A stretch of DNA of 64,000 nucleotides from Granulicella sp. S156 (lineage in GTDB: Bacteria; Acidobacteriota; Terriglobia; Terriglobales; Acidobacteriaceae): positions 496,332 to 560,331 of the forward strand of contig NZ_LMUH01000013.1 in the NCBI RefSeq assembly GCF_009766105.1, in the 5' to 3' direction. The notes beneath the pieces were generated by a model, which searched no databases, was not told the DNA's origin, and saw only the letters and a list, made by a program, of their open reading frames with translations. A program made the translations under genes and the position numbers. Below are positions 3,685-14,249 of this stretch, piece by piece; within the stretch, counting starts at the first letter, position 1, and every line of letters begins with the position of its first letter.

Positions 3685-3778
3685 TGCTGTTCAGAGTGCA
3701 TCTTGACGAGAAATAGCGGCTAAATAGCCGCGGCAACGGCCAATTTGCGAGTTAAACTCTACGACAAGGAAATTGGCT

Positions 3779-5503
3779 ATGCGATGCGCTATATACGCTC
3801 GGTTCTCGTCTGATCTACAACGTCCTACTTCCATTGAAGACCAGCTTCGCCGGTGTAGAGAATTCGCAGAAAGGCAAGGCTGGTCGGTTGTCGAGGAGCT
3901 TGTTCGCTGCGATGAAGCTAGATCGGCAGCGACCTTAGCTGGGCGTGATGCGCTCACAGAGTTGATGAAAGCGGCGAAGACGAAGCCCCGCCCGTTCGAC
4001 TGCCTTCTTGTGGATGACACTTCACGTCTGGCTCGCAATCTGCCGGATGTCTTGAACATGAACGACCGGCTCCTCTATTCCGGCGTATTTATCTACGCTG
4101 TTGCCCAACGCCTGGATTGCCGCGAGAAGACATCCCGACCGCTGTTGACGCTCCACGGCATGATGGACGAGCAGTTCCTCGTGAGCCTCGGAGAAAAAGT
4201 ACATCGTGGTCAGGAGGGAAGGGCGTTGAAGGGAATGCAACCCGGTGGACGGTGTTTCGGCTACCGGAATGTTCCTATCGAAGATCCGACCCGGATGGGC
4301 AAGTACGGCCGCGCTGCGGTGAGCGGCGTGAAGCTGGAATTCGATGAGGAGCAGTCCGCAACTGTTCTTCGCGTTTTCAATATGTATGCCGATGGCAACA
4401 GCCTCGCGGCGATAGCAAAAATCTTGAATTCCGAGGGCGTACAGGCTCCTCAGCCTCCCCGCACACGCCAGATTCGAGCATGGCATCCATCTGCGATTCG
4501 GGAGATGGTGCGTAACGAACGCTACCGTGGAGTTTTTGTCTGGAATCGGACGCGTAAGGAGAGGAACCCCGAGACCGGACGCAAGACCAGCAGGCCACGT
4601 CCCGAGTCAGACTGGATGCGGGTGGAGGTTCCTGAATGGCGGATCGTGCATGAGGAACTCTGGAAGCGAGTTGAAGCCCAAATTCATAGAGTGAATAAGA
4701 GATTCGGGGCAGTCAGCGTCGGAGGGCATGGTCGAATGGGTCGGGGACCGAGATACCTTTTCAGCGGATTTATGATTTGCGGCCTCTGCGGGGCGAGGAT
4801 GATTATCGTTTCGGGCGATGGCAAGCGAGCATACGTCAAGTACGGCTGCCCCAGCCATCGCTACCGTGGAGTCTGCACGAACAGCGTCCTCATGCGTCGG
4901 GACAGACTTGAAGCGCAACTTCTCGACGGATTGTCGAACCGAACCCTCCACCCGGTTGCGGTTGCGTTCGCTCTCGAGCGTTTCCAGGAAGCATTGCAAC
5001 GTCGTTTAAACCAAATACGCGATCAAGCGGACAGTGCTGCTAACGGGGTAGCGGCACTTCAGGCGAAGCGACAGGACTTGAAGATGCAGGTGAATAACGT
5101 GACCGAGGCGATTGCGACAATCGGTCATTCGCCCAGTCTCTTATCGAAATTGGCCATGATCGAAGCGGAGATCGGTAGGTTAGACGACCGGCTTGCTGAG
5201 ATGAACGAACCGCGAGACCTATCGCTGTCGCTGGATGAACTGAGGGAGTTTTTGTGCCAGCAGGCCGCTGAAGTTGACAGGCTTCTGCATGGCGATGTCG
5301 AAATTGCGCGGCAGACGCTGGGCAAACACATTGAGCAGCTTATACTTACGCCGACAGAAGCTCCCGATGGACCTCTACTCGAAGTTTCCGGAGACGTTGA
5401 ACTATTCAACGTATTGGGAGACTCGGGGGATGTGTGTAGCAGTAATGGTGGCCAGAGACGGCATCGAACCGCCGACGCCGGCCTTTTCAGGGCCTTTTGT
5501 TGA
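3779..5503 (+). CDS. Large serine recombinase/integrase
   Basis: The 574-aa protein has the resolvase N-terminal catalytic domain (about residues 1-150; nucleophile Ser10 in YARFS, later DDTSRLAR), then a recombinase DNA-binding domain (about 170-290), a zinc ribbon (CGLC ... CPSHRYRGVC, about 335-365) and a long coiled coil (about 390-470), all typical of phage or island integrases that join attP and attB without repeat-directed homology. The ATG at 3779 has AAGGAA 9 bases upstream; a TTG two codons earlier is possible. The last 18 or so codons (from about 5446) are made of the tRNA-Phe fragment, so the normal C-terminus was probably altered by integration or by design lies on the attachment site. 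Confidence 0.93.
   Translation: MRCAIYARFSSDLQRPTSIEDQLRRCREFAERQGWSVVEELVRCDEARSAATLAGRDALTELMKAAKTKPRPFDCLLVDDTSRLARNLPDVLNMNDRLLYSGVFIYAVAQRLDCREKTSRPLLTLHGMMDEQFLVSLGEKVHRGQEGRALKGMQPGGRCFGYRNVPIEDPTRMGKYGRAAVSGVKLEFDEEQSATVLRVFNMYADGNSLAAIAKILNSEGVQAPQPPRTRQIRAWHPSAIREMVRNERYRGVFVWNRTRKERNPETGRKTSRPRPESDWMRVEVPEWRIVHEELWKRVEAQIHRVNKRFGAVSVGGHGRMGRGPRYLFSGFMICGLCGARMIIVSGDGKRAYVKYGCPSHRYRGVCTNSVLMRRDRLEAQLLDGLSNRTLHPVAVAFALERFQEALQRRLNQIRDQADSAANGVAALQAKRQDLKMQVNNVTEAIATIGHSPSLLSKLAMIEAEIGRLDDRLAEMNEPRDLSLSLDELREFLCQQAAEVDRLLHGDVEIARQTLGKHIEQLILTPTEAPDGPLLEVSGDVELFNVLGDSGDVCSSNGGQRRHRTADAGLFRAFC
5444..5494. repeat. Left attachment site: 51-bp copy of tRNA-Phe 3' part
   Basis: These 51 bases equal 19029-19079 with a single mismatch (C at 5462, G at 19047). 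They cover the CCA end, acceptor 3' strand, T arm, variable loop and anticodon arm of tRNA-Phe, but the 5' half of the tRNA is missing here. Direct orientation and 13,585-bp spacing mark it as an integration duplicate. Confidence 0.9.
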
Positions 5504-5814: not shown

Positions 5815-5818
5815 TTAG
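5667..5818 (+). pseudogene. Remnant of an AAA-type ATPase (DUF4143-like) gene
   Basis: In one plus-strand frame the segment VQRDVRDIAEVEQLDQ (from 5726) closely resembles the conserved region of prokaryotic AAA ATPases that carry a C-terminal DUF4143 domain, found in toxin/defence contexts. The frame has no start, is closed by TAG at 5816-5818, and only about 45 codons remain. It is probably debris of a lost island gene. The match is from memory of the motif, without a search. Confidence 0.35.
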
Positions 5819-7098
5819 ATCTGGCCGGCGGTTCTGATCTCTTCAGGCGCGTCATAAAATGCGAAAGGATTCAGGAACTGTCTGCCGTAGAGGAGCGCGC
5901 GGTCTGCCGCTGATAGATTCGCCTCATCGCAAATACCATCCCAGTGTGCCCGGATGGTATTGACCTGTCGCAAAATGATGGCGCGTGCGTCCGCATCGGT
6001 GAGTTGGAATTGCGGCGCAGATTTCAGACACAATCCCAATTGACTCCTGTTTTCGTTGCCCTCGATCAACATGCCCTGCCCGGCCTCGTTGCCGGTGCGA
6101 AGTTGCGGGCATACGTCGTAGGCAGGGGTGAGACGCAGATTCTTTCCATTCCAGAACGCGGCGTGGTTGCGTGCGTGGTCATCGGTGTTCCCGCACAGGA
6201 TGTTGAAGGTAAGCCTTCCGAATAGCTCGCGAAGGTCTTCCTGGGGATTCTGAAAGCGACGCCGGATAATCTCCGCCAGCGTCTCGTAGCTTGCGTGCCT
6301 GGCCAGCATTTCGTCGAGTTCGAACATGGTAAGGGCAGACACGAACGCCTTTCGGCTCCATCCGCCCTTCTGCTCCTCGCGATCAAAGCGTTCTACCAGT
6401 AGCACATCTTTGCCGAGCGCTGCTTCCATCCGCACCGGCGAAACATTGAGCCCCGCCAGGCTTGCGAGTCGCATCGCAATGTACTCTGCTTTCACGACGT
6501 TGTAGATGTCTGTGCTCATGGAGAACTTGGCGATGAACTTCTTGTCATCGGATGTCAGGAGAGCCTTGGGCCTGGCCCCACCCAATGACGTCCCGTGCTG
6601 AAGAGCTTTATCCAGCTCTGGAGAGAGAGGGACTCCTTTTTCTACCTGCTCCGCTGAACGCAGCAGATCGGCCAGAGAGGCTTGGTTCATACTCCGTGGC
6701 TCATATTTGGACGGGGATACCTGGAAGTCCAGGGCACCGGCGCGGTCTGAGCCGGATTCGAGAAGGTAGGTCAACTCACCCAGATCGTGGCTGGCGGCTT
6801 CCTTCCCCTTGACGCTGAGCACGCGGTGGATCAGAACACGCCTCCCCCAGGCATCGGGAGAGGCATCTCGAATACAACCAGGCATCGAGAGGCCGTCTGC
6901 GAGTGGGATCTCACCGGCCTGAAGAGGAAGTTCGGGCTCGTAGATCGAGATCGCGTTCTCTCGCGCCAGATAACTCCGGCCATAGTTGAACAGCAACTGA
7001 TCTCCGACGCGCTGCAGGACGCCAGCGACGACGGGCTTTGTCTCGCCGGGGAGCCAAATCCAAACGTATGCCTCTTTGTAGTCGTCCTTAGAAATCAT
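5815..7098 (-). CDS. hipA: HipA-family serine/threonine kinase toxin (module 1)
   Basis: The 427-aa protein has the full HipA layout: an N-terminal subdomain to about residue 110, the SLGGARPK phosphate-binding/autophosphorylation loop (near 172), the catalytic GNTDDHARNH segment (near 307) and the metal-binding TPAYDVCPQ segment (near 328). HipA kinases phosphorylate targets such as glutamyl-tRNA synthetase and induce dormancy; the partner HipB neutralises and represses. Its start overlaps the end of hipB by 11 bases, so translation is coupled. All catalytic residues look intact. It is not closely similar to the second HipA at 12701. Confidence 0.93.
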   Translation of the reverse strand: MISKDDYKEAYVWIWLPGETKPVVAGVLQRVGDQLLFNYGRSYLARENAISIYEPELPLQAGEIPLADGLSMPGCIRDASPDAWGRRVLIHRVLSVKGKEAASHDLGELTYLLESGSDRAGALDFQVSPSKYEPRSMNQASLADLLRSAEQVEKGVPLSPELDKALQHGTSLGGARPKALLTSDDKKFIAKFSMSTDIYNVVKAEYIAMRLASLAGLNVSPVRMEAALGKDVLLVERFDREEQKGGWSRKAFVSALTMFELDEMLARHASYETLAEIIRRRFQNPQEDLRELFGRLTFNILCGNTDDHARNHAAFWNGKNLRLTPAYDVCPQLRTGNEAGQGMLIEGNENRSQLGLCLKSAPQFQLTDADARAIILRQVNTIRAHWDGICDEANLSAADRALLYGRQFLNPFAFYDAPEEIRTAGQI

Positions 7099-7423
7099 CG
7101 TGGATCACTCTCTTCGATTTGCGTGCATGCTGGGGCAGCAAGCTGAGCTTCTCCCTTAGCGCCGCCCGATGTGTCTGGAGCCGGCCTGGGTCGGTTTCGA
7201 ATAGAGGGACACCTGCGATGACAGCGACTTCGAAGACGGCCCCGATAGCGCAGCTCGGATCACCTTCCTCAATGCGTTGCAGGAGGGTTCGGGAGACGCC
7301 CGCTCGTGTCGCCATGTCTCGCGTGGTGATCTTCCGCTCGATCCTGCCGGCGCGAATCATCTCGGCCAACAATTCGATGGCTTCGATGTTTTGACGTGAA
7401 TAGATGCGCGATGGTTTTGCCAT
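7088..7423 (-). CDS. hipB: HipB-like antitoxin/repressor (module 1)
   Basis: The 111-aa protein has an XRE-type helix-turn-helix at about residues 25-60 (TTRDMATRAGVSRTLLQRIE), as expected for HipB. The ATG at 7423 has an AAGGTGG site 5 bases upstream; the longer frame to 7540 would run through the operators and is not used. The C-terminal 45 residues form a charged tail that could carry the toxin-contacting part. Four palindromic operators lie at 7432-7571 directly upstream, so strong cooperative autorepression is likely. Confidence 0.9.
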   Translation of the reverse strand: MAKPSRIYSRQNIEAIELLAEMIRAGRIERKITTRDMATRAGVSRTLLQRIEEGDPSCAIGAVFEVAVIAGVPLFETDPGRLQTHRAALREKLSLLPQHARKSKRVIHDDF

Positions 7424-7431
7424 ATTCCACC

Positions 7432-7453
7432 TTGGTCTTATATATGACGCCAA
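7432..7453. promoter_or_regulatory. HipB operator S1
   Basis: TTGGTCT-N8-ACGCCAA, a 22-bp site of the TTGGNCT-N8-AGNCCAA type with one mismatch. It begins 9 bases before the hipB start codon and overlaps its ribosome-binding site, so binding could also hinder translation initiation or late promoter steps. Confidence 0.65.
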
Positions 7454-7462
7454 AAGGAGCTT

Positions 7463-7484
7463 CTGGCCTAATATACGAGTCCAA
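7463..7484. promoter_or_regulatory. HipB operator S2
   Basis: CTGGCCT-N8-AGTCCAA, 22 bp, centred exactly 31 bp from S1, about three helical turns, placing S1 and S2 on the same DNA face. Confidence 0.7.
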
Positions 7485-7518
7485 TAATCTCCCAGAAAGT
7501 GATTCGAGTCAAGCGTAT

Positions 7519-7540
7519 TTGGCCTTACTAATGAGTCCAA
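7519..7540. promoter_or_regulatory. HipB operator S3
   Basis: TTGGCCT-N8-AGTCCAA. Flanking AT on both sides extends the symmetry to ATTTGG...CCAAAT, making this the most perfect copy of the set. Confidence 0.72.
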
Positions 7541-7549
7541 ATAACGCTT

Positions 7550-7571
7550 CCGGACTTATTAGCAAGGCCAA
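7550..7571. promoter_or_regulatory. HipB operator S4
   Basis: CCGGACT-N8-AGGCCAA, centred exactly 31 bp from S3, repeating the S1-S2 spacing. A shorter related palindrome (TTGGCT-N6-AGCCAA) follows at 7585-7602 and may be a degenerate fifth site. Confidence 0.7.
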
Positions 7572-7865
7572 ACTCGTCAAACCTTTGGCTTTTATGAGCC
7601 AACTTGAACGTCATCCGCCGCTTGTATTGGACTTTGTTCTGCTGGCCTCCGGTGTTTGGCTTCGAGCTTCTCCAGTAACTCCATCTCATCAGCCCGCAAC
7701 GACGAGTCGGCGCCCATGATGAGCGCGCATTGAGGATGCAGGTTTGACAGAAGACGCGGAAGCGCAAAATTACGTGGAGATCTCCGCCTGTACGACGGAA
7801 CGGGGATCGTTCCGTTCAGAGATCGTTTGTTTGCAGCTCCCATATCCTGTTTATGGGGTTAATTC
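7572..7865. other. Gap without a supported gene
   Basis: Between the operator array and the metallophosphoesterase gene I see only short minus-strand frames (for example 41 codons from 7717) with no convincing ribosome-binding site. The palindrome at 7585-7602 is the only structure noticed. Confidence 0.4.
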
Positions 7866-8504
7866 ATGCGTCTTGTTGTAATTTCTGACACTCATGGTCT
7901 CCACAATAGAATTCAGGAGCTTCCTGACGGCGATGTTCTGATTCATGCTGGAGATTTTATGAATTCTGGCTACGATCCGGAGGACATCCGGTCATTCAAT
8001 CGTTGGCTGGGGAGACAGCCCTTCGAGCATCGCGTGGTTTGCGGCGGGAATCACGATCGATATTTCCAGAATTCACCGCATCAGGCCCGCGCTCTTCTTA
8101 CCAATGCAATCTACCTGGAGAACGATGGTGTCACGATCGACAACGTCTTTCTCTGGGGATCACCCTACACACCCGAATTTATGAATTGGGCATTTATGTA
8201 CCCTCGTGGCTTAGCAGCCAGACAGTACTGGGACCAGATCCCATATAACCTGGACGTGCTCATCACACACGGGCCGCCTTGGGGTACTCTCGACCAAGCC
8301 ATGCCAGGCGGCGTACATCTCGGTTGCGAAGAATTATTTGAAGCAGTGAAAGAGAAGAAACCCAAGATACATCTCTTCGGCCATATTCATGGAGGTGCTG
8401 GGACATTTGAGAACGGGGTCACCCGCTTTGTGAATGCCGCATACCTCAACGAACAGTACAAACCGTTGGAACCCGCGGGCAAGGTGCGCATCGTTGACCT
8501 TTAG
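7866..8504 (+). CDS. Calcineurin-like metallophosphoesterase
   Basis: The 212-aa protein shows every motif of the two-metal phosphoesterase fold in order: DTH at residues 8-10, GD with DVLIHAGDF (near 29), GNHD (near 61), THGPPW (near 137) and GHIHGG (near 174). It is of the small MPE type related to eukaryotic MPPED/239FB proteins that hydrolyse phosphodiesters or cyclic nucleotides. It starts right after a GGGGTTAATTC leader with a weak site. Neighbours on the island give no substrate. In a defence-rich island a role in second-messenger or nucleotide turnover is conceivable but not shown. Confidence 0.88.
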   Translation: MRLVVISDTHGLHNRIQELPDGDVLIHAGDFMNSGYDPEDIRSFNRWLGRQPFEHRVVCGGNHDRYFQNSPHQARALLTNAIYLENDGVTIDNVFLWGSPYTPEFMNWAFMYPRGLAARQYWDQIPYNLDVLITHGPPWGTLDQAMPGGVHLGCEELFEAVKEKKPKIHLFGHIHGGAGTFENGVTRFVNAAYLNEQYKPLEPAGKVRIVDL

Positions 8505-8722: not shown

Positions 8723-9844
8723 TTGTCCGTTTGTAAAAAAGGAAAAGGGATCTATGTTGTTCGCTGGCGTGAAGGAGATCGTCACAGGAGCCTGAAGGTC
8801 CATGGCACAGAAGAGTTCGCGAGAAAAGTGGAGCGAGAAAAGCTTTGCCTGCGCGATGAGAACCGGTACCCCGACATCTCGAAAGAGATCAACTACAGAA
8901 TGTCTGAGCTGATTGATCGTTACTGGGTTCAATATGGGGTCAAAAAAGCTTCTGCAGGCCGAGAGAGGAGTATTTTAGCGGGCATCGGTTCCGAGTTGGG
9001 ATCCATGTTTGTACGAAACGTGGACGGCACTCACATCCAACGCTGGTGCGATAACCTTACTGGCAAGCGTGGGCTGGCAGAGAACACCGCAGTGAGGCAC
9101 TTCAACGTCATGCATCACCTGATGAAGAAGGCCTCGACGATCTGGTCCAGGGAGACTGGACTCACCCAGAATCCGGCCGACATGGTTGAGATAAAACGTT
9201 CCGATGATTCACGGGAGCGTTTCCTTTCGAAAGAAGAACTCAAGAGGCTGAAGATAGCCCTGGACGAAAGAATATTCCGCAAGGGAACCAAAGACTTTAA
9301 TCAGACAAATCTTCGGATGAGGCTGATTGTATTGCTCGCCATTTCAACCGGGATGCGTTCAGCCGAGATTTATAGCCTCCGCTGGCCGGACGTGATGTAT
9401 CGCGAAAAACTGATTGCGGTCCGAGCAAAGCTGAAGAAGGGTAAGCACCGTTATGTTCCCATGACGTCGGAGTTGGCCGAAGAGATTCGACGGTATCCAG
9501 CAGTGATCGGTAAAGATCGCCTCTTCCTGCCAACATGTGGAGACGAAAATAAAAGGCAAAGGCTGGCAGGAAATTTCAATAATCTGCTCGCACGGGCACG
9601 AATTCGGGACTTTCGATTTCACGATCTGCGTCACACCTTCGCGTCCTGGTACATGATGAACGGCGGCGATCTCTACGAACTTGCGAAGCTCCTCGGCCAC
9701 TCCAATATTAAAATGACCGAGCGTTATGCCAAGTTGGGACGCGCCCATATTGCCAAGACCGGAACCACGGCCAGAGTGATCTGGAGCATGATGGACAAGG
9801 CATCGGAGCAGGAAGAAGAGGAAAGGGAATGGCATACCGCTTGA
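8723..9844 (+). CDS. Tyrosine recombinase/phage-type integrase
   Basis: The 373-aa protein has an N-terminal SAM-like core-binding domain (about 55-150) and a C-terminal catalytic domain with Arg212 (STGMRSAEI), a beta-hairpin Lys region (near 238), His300 and Arg303 (HDLRH), His326 (LGHS) and nucleophile Tyr335. All key residues are present. TTG at 8723 is taken as start because AAGGAG lies 7 bases upstream. It sits inside the tRNA-Phe-bounded island, 3.2 kb from the left end and 9.2 kb from the right, unlike most tRNA-island integrases, which abut an attachment site. Confidence 0.93.
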   Translation: MSVCKKGKGIYVVRWREGDRHRSLKVHGTEEFARKVEREKLCLRDENRYPDISKEINYRMSELIDRYWVQYGVKKASAGRERSILAGIGSELGSMFVRNVDGTHIQRWCDNLTGKRGLAENTAVRHFNVMHHLMKKASTIWSRETGLTQNPADMVEIKRSDDSRERFLSKEELKRLKIALDERIFRKGTKDFNQTNLRMRLIVLLAISTGMRSAEIYSLRWPDVMYREKLIAVRAKLKKGKHRYVPMTSELAEEIRRYPAVIGKDRLFLPTCGDENKRQRLAGNFNNLLARARIRDFRFHDLRHTFASWYMMNGGDLYELAKLLGHSNIKMTERYAKLGRAHIAKTGTTARVIWSMMDKASEQEEEEREWHTA

Positions 9845-11330: not shown

Positions 11331-12464
11331 CTATAGCTTTATACCCAAACCAGACATGTGTGATTTCATCTGCGGTGAATCCAAAAGCTGCTCCATCGTC
11401 TCGAGGGAAGCGGTTTTGTGACGGGAAAACAGCTTCAGAATGCTGACCGTAACCTCGGGATCAAATTTCATCAGCGACCTTCGAACCCAAATTAGATTCT
11501 TTCGCTCTTCTGGTCGCCAAAGAGCACCGCTCTCCACTAATGCCTGGATGCAATCCAGACCATGTCCAATGAGGTACTTCGGAATCAGATCCCTCCGCAT
11601 CTCGTCACGCTGAGCATGTAGATCTAGATGGCGCAGGCTCTGGTCCAGGATGGAAGAACCTCCGTTCGGCAGATCATTGGGGTTGACGCCGAGTTCGACA
11701 AGATATCGAATCACATCCGCGGACGCTGACAGAAATGATGCCTGGAGCAGTTCCGTCAGATTGTCGTTGACAGGATCAGGTTTCATCTTCTTCAAGAGAT
11801 CGAGATTTCCTGCATTACAAGCTTCCTTGAGAGCGGTTGTATAGCATTCAGGATCATCATCGTCAGACAATACCGGCCCGCTCGAGCGTGGGTTAGCGCC
11901 AGCCACCATAAGCAGCCTTCCCCATTTCAAATTGCCTTCGGAGGCAAAATAACGCAATGCACAATCCGTTTGCTTCTGAAGCTCACTTGCAAGTTCTGGA
12001 TGAGCCTTCTTGTATCTGGTGAATGCTTGCCATGAGATCCAAACTTCCTCCCGAAAAGCATCTTCAAATGGATGATCGGTTATGGCATCAGCACCGCTTT
12101 CAAGAAAGTACCGCATGATCTCCAGCTTCGAGGTGCGTAGCGCATCAACCAATGGGACAGCTCGAATTGCTGCGCCATGCTCGACCAGCAACTGCACGAG
12201 ATCGAGTCTCTTTGTTGAAACTGCTTCTGACAGCGCCCTATTCTTGATCTCCTGAGACGCTTCGTTTCGAACCAGCAATTCCACAAGACTATGGAACCCA
12301 GTCTGGATTGCCACTTGCAAGGGCGTCTTTGGCAGCTTCCTGGAAGGAGGAGGTGGTTGGATTGATTTTCCGGACGCGATCCACCTCTCGACTTCATAGA
12401 GTCTGCCGGCACGGCAATGTCCAATCAGCAGTTTGGCTTCTTCCAACGTGAGAGTTTCGTCCAT
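11331..12464 (-). CDS. Ankyrin-repeat protein
   Basis: The 377-aa protein consists largely of degenerate ankyrin repeats: TPLQVAIQTGFHSLVELLVR (about 46), then RALSEAVSTKRLDLVQLLVE, VDALRTSKLEIMRYFLESGA and, further on, TALKEACNAGNLDLLKK and SADVIRYLVELGV. There is no signal peptide or membrane segment, so it is cytoplasmic and presumably binds a protein partner. The ATG has a GGAGA site upstream. It is the first gene of a two-gene unit with the 412-aa protein at 10069; the tight spacing suggests a joint function, possibly sensor or regulator plus effector. Confidence 0.85.
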   Translation of the reverse strand: MDETLTLEEAKLLIGHCRAGRLYEVERWIASGKSIQPPPPSRKLPKTPLQVAIQTGFHSLVELLVRNEASQEIKNRALSEAVSTKRLDLVQLLVEHGAAIRAVPLVDALRTSKLEIMRYFLESGADAITDHPFEDAFREEVWISWQAFTRYKKAHPELASELQKQTDCALRYFASEGNLKWGRLLMVAGANPRSSGPVLSDDDDPECYTTALKEACNAGNLDLLKKMKPDPVNDNLTELLQASFLSASADVIRYLVELGVNPNDLPNGGSSILDQSLRHLDLHAQRDEMRRDLIPKYLIGHGLDCIQALVESGALWRPEERKNLIWVRRSLMKFDPEVTVSILKLFSRHKTASLETMEQLLDSPQMKSHMSGLGIKL

Positions 12465-12700: not shown

Positions 12701-13927
12701 TCACCGTAACCCGATCTTGTCTACGATCTCTTTGGCCGATTTTCGCGAAACTTCTGCCAGTTCTGCATAGCGTGGCCAATTGGCCATGGCGCTCTCTACC
12801 TTCGCCAGAATCTCCGGCGCGTTTTTTATCCCATGCTGTTTGCCCAATGCCTGGAGCTGGGCTGCGCCGGGATTCCTTCCCTCGCCCATGACGAGCATGC
12901 TTTGCTCGCCGCCCGGGCCGTAGGAAAAGACCAGATCGTAGGCGGGCGCGAAGGTCCACTCATTTCTCGCGTTGAGAAGGAACGAAAAATTCTTCACATG
13001 ATCGTCGCGGTTATGGGCAAGGACGTTGAAGCAGGCCAGCGCATAGGCCCTTTCGGCATCCTGGATATTCTTGGTCAACGCCAGGGTCACGCGCAGAACC
13101 GTATCGTAGTCGAGGCTGGGACTGCGATGATCGGCATGAATCAGGCCGCCAAGGCTATGCATATGGATGCGGGCGTCGCCGTCCCGGTCGAAGCGTTTCG
13201 TGCCGAAATATTTGTTCCGTTTCGTGCGGAAAAGATGGGTTTCTTGCATCTCTACGCCTGCATCCTTTGCCATCAGGCTATAGGCGTATTCGATCGCCCC
13301 CACGTCCCGCGCGTCCTGGGAAGACGGAAACTTGATCATCCAGTGCGCGAAGCTGGATTGCAATTCCTGCTGGCCGTGAATGATTCTTTTCTTGTCGGCG
13401 CTCACTTGTGCCACGATCTTAGGACGGGCGCCCGAAGAGGAGCCATTGAGCCGCAGCAACTCTTCAAATACCTCTTCGTTTGCTCCAGCCAGCACGGCGG
13501 CTGATTCCTCAGCGAGTTTGTCGAGCGCCAACGGAACATCATCGGTGTTTTCGAGACCCAGTTCCGGCTCGTAACTGAGAGCGCCCATGCCGTGCCGCCC
13601 CACATAGGCCAGCCGGTCGAGCGGATTCAGTTGGCCGCGATGGACACCATTTTTTTCCACCGTGCGGTCGAGCAGAAGACGGCCCCATCCGTCCGGCAGG
13701 CTGTCATTGAATACGCCGAACAGGCCGTCGAAGATCGTAGTGTCGGCAATGGATACACCCGGCCTGAGTGGCAGTTTGATTGGCGAGATCTCGATGTCGG
13801 AAGCGATGAATGAAGCGTCATACTCGAAAAGGACCTGCCTATCCTTGAAAGCGAGTCGCCCAACCTTGCGGCGTTGGTTTCGCGCGTCCAGATAGACGGT
13901 CAGCAACTCTATCGGGCTATATGCCAT
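12701..13927 (-). CDS. hipA: HipA-family kinase toxin (module 2)
   Basis: The 408-aa protein has the N-subdomain (about 1-105), a SSSGARPK phosphate loop (near 158), catalytic AHNRDDHVKNF (near 302) and FAPAYDLVFSYG (near 324), so an active kinase is expected. It belongs to a different HipA branch from the one at 5815: shorter spacer regions, NRDDH instead of NTDDH, and little similarity outside motifs. The ATG at 13927 has AAAGGA upstream and overlaps the end of hipB by 11 bases; the frame to 14047 lies inside hipB and is not used. Confidence 0.93.
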   Translation of the reverse strand: MAYSPIELLTVYLDARNQRRKVGRLAFKDRQVLFEYDASFIASDIEISPIKLPLRPGVSIADTTIFDGLFGVFNDSLPDGWGRLLLDRTVEKNGVHRGQLNPLDRLAYVGRHGMGALSYEPELGLENTDDVPLALDKLAEESAAVLAGANEEVFEELLRLNGSSSGARPKIVAQVSADKKRIIHGQQELQSSFAHWMIKFPSSQDARDVGAIEYAYSLMAKDAGVEMQETHLFRTKRNKYFGTKRFDRDGDARIHMHSLGGLIHADHRSPSLDYDTVLRVTLALTKNIQDAERAYALACFNVLAHNRDDHVKNFSFLLNARNEWTFAPAYDLVFSYGPGGEQSMLVMGEGRNPGAAQLQALGKQHGIKNAPEILAKVESAMANWPRYAELAEVSRKSAKEIVDKIGLR

Positions 13928-14249
13928 GGCCGCGTCCTTTCCCGCCCGTCGCTCTGCGCCGCAACGCCGGCGTGGCCAGCAGGGCGTCGAGCGATTGGGC
14001 GGCCGGGATTGACTGGCTTTTCCCGGCCAGCTTGTCGAAATCGTCAAGGCAATCCAGCACCAGGGCCAGATTCAGAAGCGAATCCAGCGAAATCAATCCT
14101 TCGCGCTCAAATCGCTTCAGCGAACTCCAAGTCACGCCCGAGCGCGCCGCCAGTTCTTTCTGCGTCAGGTTCATGGCAAGCCGCCGGGCCTTGAACCGCC
14201 CTGCGATTCCTGTCTTTACCTCTTGCACTGTCCTGAGATAAACAGACAA
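13917..14249 (-). CDS. hipB: HipB-like antitoxin/repressor (module 2)
   Basis: The 110-aa XRE-family protein has its helix-turn-helix at about residues 18-65 (RLAMNLTQKELAARSGVTWS), with a Gly/Arg-rich C-terminal tail. I take the TTG at 14249 as start because AGAGGT lies 7 bases upstream; a GTG at 14228 is the alternative. Two palindromic sites at 14244-14306 overlap and precede this start, of a sequence unrelated to the operators of module 1, so the two modules are probably regulated independently. Confidence 0.88.
   Translation of the reverse strand: MSVYLRTVQEVKTGIAGRFKARRLAMNLTQKELAARSGVTWSSLKRFEREGLISLDSLLNLALVLDCLDDFDKLAGKSQSIPAAQSLDALLATPALRRRATGGKGRGHGI

Follow-up and report, generated by a model that had tools for sequence, protein, structure and literature searches.

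The genes hipB and hipA of Granulicella sp. S156 are preceded by four inverted repeats, and the questions this locus raises are which protein reads them, whether their arrangement is peculiar to this genome, and whether their bases can be related to the protein that would bind them. The locus lies within the 64,000-nucleotide stretch of DNA that was analysed, here called the window. An earlier note on this DNA had described four 22-bp dyads of the form TTGGNCT-N8-AGNCCAA at 31-, 56- and 31-bp centre spacing, and had proposed that they are HipB operators.

Four clustered dyads around a predicted promoter

The sites were found where they had been described. In order from hipB, and all on the minus strand, they are the putative operators O1 (7432..7453), O2 (7463..7484), O3 (7519..7540) and O4 (7550..7571), with centres at -19, -50, -106 and -137 from the hipB ATG. 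Counted against the 22-bp dyad TTGGNCT-N8-AGNCCAA, O1 and O2 each have one mismatch, O3 has none and O4 has two. The centre-to-centre distances, all within the 150 bp before hipB, are indeed 31, 56 and 31 bp. At up to three mismatches the pattern itself is not enriched in the 64-kb window (24 matches versus 22.6 expected from the shuffle mean), and clustering was therefore tested instead. The 190 bp upstream of hipB were searched, with no motif supplied, for a two-plus-two array, allowing pair spacings of 24-40 and a gap of 30-70 and scoring the agreement of the eight half-sites. The best array fell exactly on the centres of O1-O4, with a score of 155, whereas the same search of 200 dinucleotide shuffles gave a maximum of 110 (mean 93.6, sd 3.8). 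The non-random part is thus the clustering and register of the dyads, not the frequency of the pattern in the window.

Numbered outward from the centre, the eight half-sites have G9 in 8/8, G8 in 8/8, C6 in 7/8, T5 in 8/8, A3 in 6/8 and T2 in 6/8. Since A3 and T2 each recur in six half-sites, part of the nominal N8 core is also constrained. Outside the invariant G9 there is mostly TT, which gives the TTGG of the pattern. A further dyad, TTGGCT-N6-AGCCAA, lies at 7585-7602, centred 33 bp further out than O4 and with a core two bases shorter. It is possibly a decayed fifth site; it fails the locus-specific profile and was dropped as a fifth operator.

The 56-bp gap between the two operator pairs holds a predicted sigma-70-like promoter on the hipB strand. 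Its -35 box, TTGACT (7507..7512, minus strand), begins 6 bp from O3 and stands 17 bp from a -10 box, GATTAT (7484..7489, minus strand), that touches O2. The combination matches the consensus at 9 of 12 bases and is the only sigma-70-like promoter reported in a scan of 7380-7900, where 0.5 would be expected by chance. From the usual distance, transcription is predicted to start within O2. A promoter could be placed in 64 loci. Measured upstream from the centre of O2, the biggest cluster puts the -35 box at 36-39 bp, in 18 loci, and the -10 box at 14-16 bp, in 17. The window's boxes, at 39 and 16 bp, have the register of this cluster. Another cluster is shifted some 10 bp towards the O2 centre, and the remaining loci are scattered.

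The hipBA module and its neighbours

The gene hipB (7088..7423, minus strand) encodes a 111-aa Cro/XRE-type HTH antitoxin that ends in DDF, and hipA (5815..7098, minus strand), which overlaps the hipB stop, encodes a 427-aa HipA-family kinase. With the HTH gene first and the HipA-like kinase gene overlapping its end, the locus has the organization of a hipBA type II toxin-antitoxin module. HipB scores barely over the cut-off of PF01381, and its 35.4 bits for NCBIfam couple_hipB (TIGR03070) fall under that model's curated cut-off of 71.65; judged by these scores, it is a relative outside the TIGR03070 subfamily. In the predicted structure the recognition helix, residues 45-52, is the second helix of the HTH, with a mean pLDDT of 95 over residues 41-50 and of 90 over residues 51-60. 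HipA matches PF07804 with an E value of 1.7e-49 and PF13657 over its cut-off. In an alignment in which the two proteins are 25% identical, S171, D306 and D328 of the window HipA are invariant with S150, D309 and D332 of E. coli HipA; we take them to be the P-loop serine, the catalytic aspartate and the Mg-binding aspartate, respectively. HipA is here a single protein with an N-terminal Couple_hipA domain, not one divided into HipS and HipT as in the hipBST type. The closest solved HipA by sequence is that of Shewanella oneidensis (4pu5/4pu3, E 7e-7), and Shewanella HipB (4pu7) is among the fold matches of the window HipB.

The module is flanked by a serine recombinase and a tyrosine integrase (3773-5503 and 8723-9844), which suggests a mobile or defence island. 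Divergent from hipBA is a calcineurin-like phosphoesterase gene (7866-8504) whose product matches the PADLOC phage-defence candidate PDC-S10 (E 4e-82), and an ankyrin-repeat protein encoded at 11331-12464 has a weak match to the defence candidate PDC-M72A. There is also a second hipBA module at 12701-14249 (hipB at 13917-14249), whose HipA is 30% identical to the first. No paired array was found in the region upstream of this second module, where the best score was 27 versus 24-30 in ten shuffles.

A paired spacing of 30 or 31 bp in homologous loci

One scan of genome contigs gave 47 relatives of the window HipB. At order level they occur in 9 of 298 genomes at a loose E of 1e-6, the window's own genome counted, with three close relatives among the eight others; the phylum-level search, at E 1e-15, found them in 2 of 297 genomes, the window's own and one among the 296 others. 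Further whole-genome searches, with the centre genome counted, gave 16/347, 24/369, 14/300 and 17/337, and a search of viral contigs gave no relatives. From 133 loci with a HipB hit, 19 were removed (duplicate fetch, broken frame, short upstream region, partial or distant hit), and 8 near-identical upstream regions were then dropped, to leave 106 non-redundant loci. The HipBs of this set end in Phe in 105 of the 106 loci, the window included, and in DDF in 91.

A family motif built from 39 homologue upstream regions, with the window excluded, reads approximately TGNYCYATwwATRGRNCA; the half-site, from outside to centre, is T9 G8 N7 Y6 Y5 N4 A3 T2. The motif finds 130 sites in 44 upstream regions (shuffle mean 7), and 60 of the 90 gaps between neighbouring sites are 30 or 31 bp. 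The window's own O1-O4 score below the motif cut-off, at less than 6 bits, the motif preferring T9 where the window has G9, and so motif-free measures were used. For each upstream region we took the distance at which two dyads, i.e., four half-sites, agree best. The comparison with homologous hipBA loci that the earlier note had put forward as a check came out in its favour: the best spacing was 30 or 31 bp in 69 of the 106 hipB upstream regions (31 in 54, 30 in 15). With one shuffle per region a spacing of 31 was best in 3, and of 103 stretches within hipA one gave 31 and three gave 30. In 84/106 loci, versus 3/106 shuffled regions, the best pair reached a score of 27 or higher. The other 22 upstream regions, that of the near relative L008 included, have no pair at this cut-off.

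Locus-specific profiles applied to the 84 loci with a pair gave two sites in 40, three in 13, four in 30 and five in 1. In all 30 four-site loci, the window included, both pairs are spaced by 30 or 31 bp, although the spacing of the second pair was not imposed by the search, and the two spacings are equal in 29 (31/31 in 24, 30/30 in 5, with one locus mixed). The gap between pairs varies from 35 to 63 bp, with 50-54 bp in 19 of the 30. Because pair spacing is nearly constant while inter-pair gaps vary, the rigid unit is the pair. One locus, L039, repeats the 31-56-31 layout of the window, with centres at -138, -107, -51 and -20 from its ATG. The inter-pair gaps show a weak tendency to whole helical turns (R 0.41, n=30, uncorrected for relatedness), from which the window's 56-bp gap departs. 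This bears on the earlier proposal that the array places paired dimers on one DNA face. Within a pair the proposal holds, 31 bp being 2.95 turns at 10.5 bp per turn; between pairs it does not, and since 56 bp amounts to 5.33 turns only the sites inside one pair share a face.

Close relatives keep the spacing but not the bases. The window's nearest relative, L014, whose HipB is about 77% identical, carries two copies of GCCTCATATATGAG at a distance of 31 bp; L007 carries two copies of another dyad at a distance of 30 bp. In each of these two loci a single pair was found, and in L008 none.

Covariation of operator bases with the recognition helix

Covariation between HipB residues and half-site bases was studied on the 84 loci whose pair reached the cut-off of 27; mutual information was computed on the 83 loci other than the window, and the window was included in the nearest-neighbour test described below. 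The strongest links join half-site position 4 to residues 47 and 50, followed by 62 and 69 with position 4, 47 with position 3, 49 with position 7 and 46 with position 6. Four of the six linked residues fall in the recognition helix; because 62 and 69, which lie outside it, also rank high, common descent contributes to the covariation. The bases associated with residue 46 can be read directly. HipBs with Gly46 and Leu47 (43 loci) go with T6 in 119/172 and C5 in 134/172 half-sites, and those with Ala, Ser or Thr at 46 and Leu47 (10 loci) go with C6 in 23/40 and T5 in 29/40. The window HipB has Thr46 and Leu47, along with the C6 and T5 counted above. Its G8/C6/T5 combination recurs in relatives with an SR[A/S]LL recognition helix (L014, L025, L048 and L117).

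To separate the contribution of common descent, the half-site of each locus was predicted from its nearest neighbour, chosen on the basis of either the helix or the remainder of HipB. When neighbours above 60% identity were disallowed, the helix scored 0.524 versus 0.439 for the remainder and 0.349 for random choice (p 3e-4, loci treated as independent). With neighbours limited to 50% the advantage of the helix was greater (p 9e-7, loci again treated as independent), and at a limit of 75% the helix gave no significant gain over the remainder of HipB (p 0.12). When 97 ten-residue windows of HipB were compared as half-site predictors, the four best started at residues 40-43. In 76 loci, Gly46 occurred with T6 in 35 and C6 in 5, and other residues with T6 in 7 and C6 in 29; for a tree-based, independent-pairs comparison of residue 46 with half-site position 6, however, the tree offers just 5 changes of the residue, too few to weigh.

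The relation was then carried to plasmids. Twelve plasmid loci were picked for variety from the 40 hits listed (113 records matched), and all 12 were counted; the helix in their HipBs was located by a pattern written after the family was seen. A rule based on the helix predicted 134 of 192 bases, versus 84 for the family majority. At positions 7, 6, 5 and 4 it was correct in 31, 21, 41 and 41 of 48 half-sites, the majority in 11, 17, 34 and 22; position 6 was thus poorly predicted, at 21/48. The rule beat the family majority in 8 loci and equalled it in 4. The test is not fully independent, because L150 nearly duplicates L020 (98% HipB identity, upstream region shared) and the set contains a 93% relative of L145. 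The totals are 122 vs 75 of 176 without L150, and 98 vs 59 of 144 without L145, L148 and L150. The best spacing was 30 or 31 bp in 8 of the 12, with ties counted against, and 10 have a 30/31-bp pair that scores 27 or higher.

In four of the plasmid loci no intact hipA adjoins hipB. In L146 and L148 no HipA match was found within 700 bases after hipB, L149 has HipA matches in two frames, and L150 has a 40-residue HipA remnant; in L148 a stop also lies close to the beginning of the hipB stretch. All four loci keep a 31-bp operator pair, with scores of 31, 34, 30 and 31, respectively.

Discussion

The sequence evidence assembled here makes it very probable that the four dyads are autoregulatory operators of hipBA, bound by HipB. 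A regulator other than HipB, nearby-encoded or global, might be proposed instead, and other DNA-binding genes do lie close by, namely those of the recombinases and the second hipB. This is improbable, given that the array travels with hipB across Alpha-, Beta- and Gammaproteobacteria, an Acidobacteria MAG and plasmids, that among divergent pairs the operator bases track the HipB helix better than they track the rest of HipB, and that the window's second hipB is without such an array. Less probable still is that the array is an ancestral leftover, functional elsewhere in the family and drifting unused in this genome. The deviation of the window's sites from the family motif and the rarity of the family in the phylum would fit a leftover, but the four sites agree with one another at G9, G8, T5 and C6, their register is exact, both hipB and hipA are open, and the kinase residues are present. 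It is most unlikely of all that the repeats work in RNA, as attenuator or terminator hairpins: O3 and O4 together do make up an inverted repeat of 21 nt (90%) whose arms are 13 nt apart, but only O1 would be fully transcribed, since O3 and O4 are upstream of the promoter and O2 spans the predicted start, the conserved features are a spacing of about three turns and bases that follow an HTH helix, and a terminator scan had its one hit at 7640-7654, with none in 7432-7571.

If the dyads are HipB operators, a HipB dimer would read each 18-22 bp dyad through its recognition helix, and two dimers would cooperate on one DNA face within O1-O2 and within O3-O4, three turns apart. HipA bridges operator-bound HipB in E. 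coli, and HipA would probably aid paired binding here as well. Because the promoter lies between the two pairs and O2 is at its -10 box and start, occupancy of the pairs would block RNA polymerase, and a fall in the HipB level would relieve the repression. It is by analogy with E. coli and from the anatomy of the locus that we propose binding and cooperativity, a role for HipA, and repression.

The four-operator arrangement is not a new kind, because hipBA of E. coli K-12 has the same plan, with four perfect TATCC-N8-GGATA sites at -125, -97, -58 and -30, i.e., a 28-39-28 layout. Both loci have four dyads in two pairs around a promoter, hipB first with hipA overlapping it, an HTH antitoxin, and an 18-bp dyad whose arms begin five bases from the centre, hence the same N8. 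They differ in pair spacing (28 bp in E. coli versus 31 here), in the gap (39 versus 56) and in the half-site, the window having TTGGNCT and not the E. coli type, as the earlier note had said. According to PMC3376134, and in the translated K-12 gene, E. coli HipB ends in Trp, versus DDF in the window. Cooperative binding of E. coli HipB to four sites is described in PMC3376134 and PMC3920265. For Caulobacter crescentus, PMC7029023 reports a series of identical inverted repeats in the hipBA1 and hipBA2 promoters, at intervals said to suit the E. coli higher-order complex, and PMC8545095 reports three operator sites; a series of inverted repeats is thus common to these promoters and the window. 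In Legionella hipBST, several conserved HipB operators upstream of the hip operon are bound in EMSA, according to PMC10653801, a likeness to the window; as given there, it differs from the window in having three evenly spaced sites with 53-bp gaps, six-base arms and a toxin split into HipS and HipT.

Two further statements of the earlier note have to be modified. It had presented the window's operators as a new HipB specificity; they appear instead as one variant within a HipB subfamily whose half-sites are approximately TG-N-YY-N-AT. By their sequence the putative operators are a variant of the shared paired four-operator plan, with a specificity that differs from that of E. coli and belongs to the subfamily (approximately TGNYCYAT). 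It had also held that the operator code is readable from sequence, whereas this site alone does not give it and homologues are needed. In searches of the open-access PMC literature, which leaves most subscription papers outside, we found no description of the 30/31-bp pair across this subfamily, of its half-site family or of the helix-operator relation.

On balance, and with some reserve, we favour a broader proposal: that HipBs of this subfamily, of about 111 aa and ending in DDF, share a rigid 30/31-bp pair module, often repeated on both sides of the promoter, whose specificity drifts with the recognition helix; that the geometry of the HipB-HipA bridge differs from that in E. coli; and that helix residues 46, 47, 49 and 50 constitute a simple, swappable operator code. 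A different bridge is predicted because the pair spacing is about 3 bp, or about 100 degrees of twist, off the 28 bp of E. coli, and the structural question raised is how 31 bp in the subfamily relates to 28 bp in E. coli. In the literature consulted, described HipB operators cover few modules, those of E. coli, Caulobacter and Legionella HipBST, with Shewanella by citation only, and no operator is described there for this subfamily, in which 84/106 loci have the paired layout. Operator bases are partly predictable from a ten-residue stretch of the antitoxin; at residue 46, for example, Gly pairs with TC, and Ala, Ser or Thr mostly with CT. Antitoxin-operator specificity, and with it the insulation between toxin-antitoxin modules, thereby becomes testable by residue swap.
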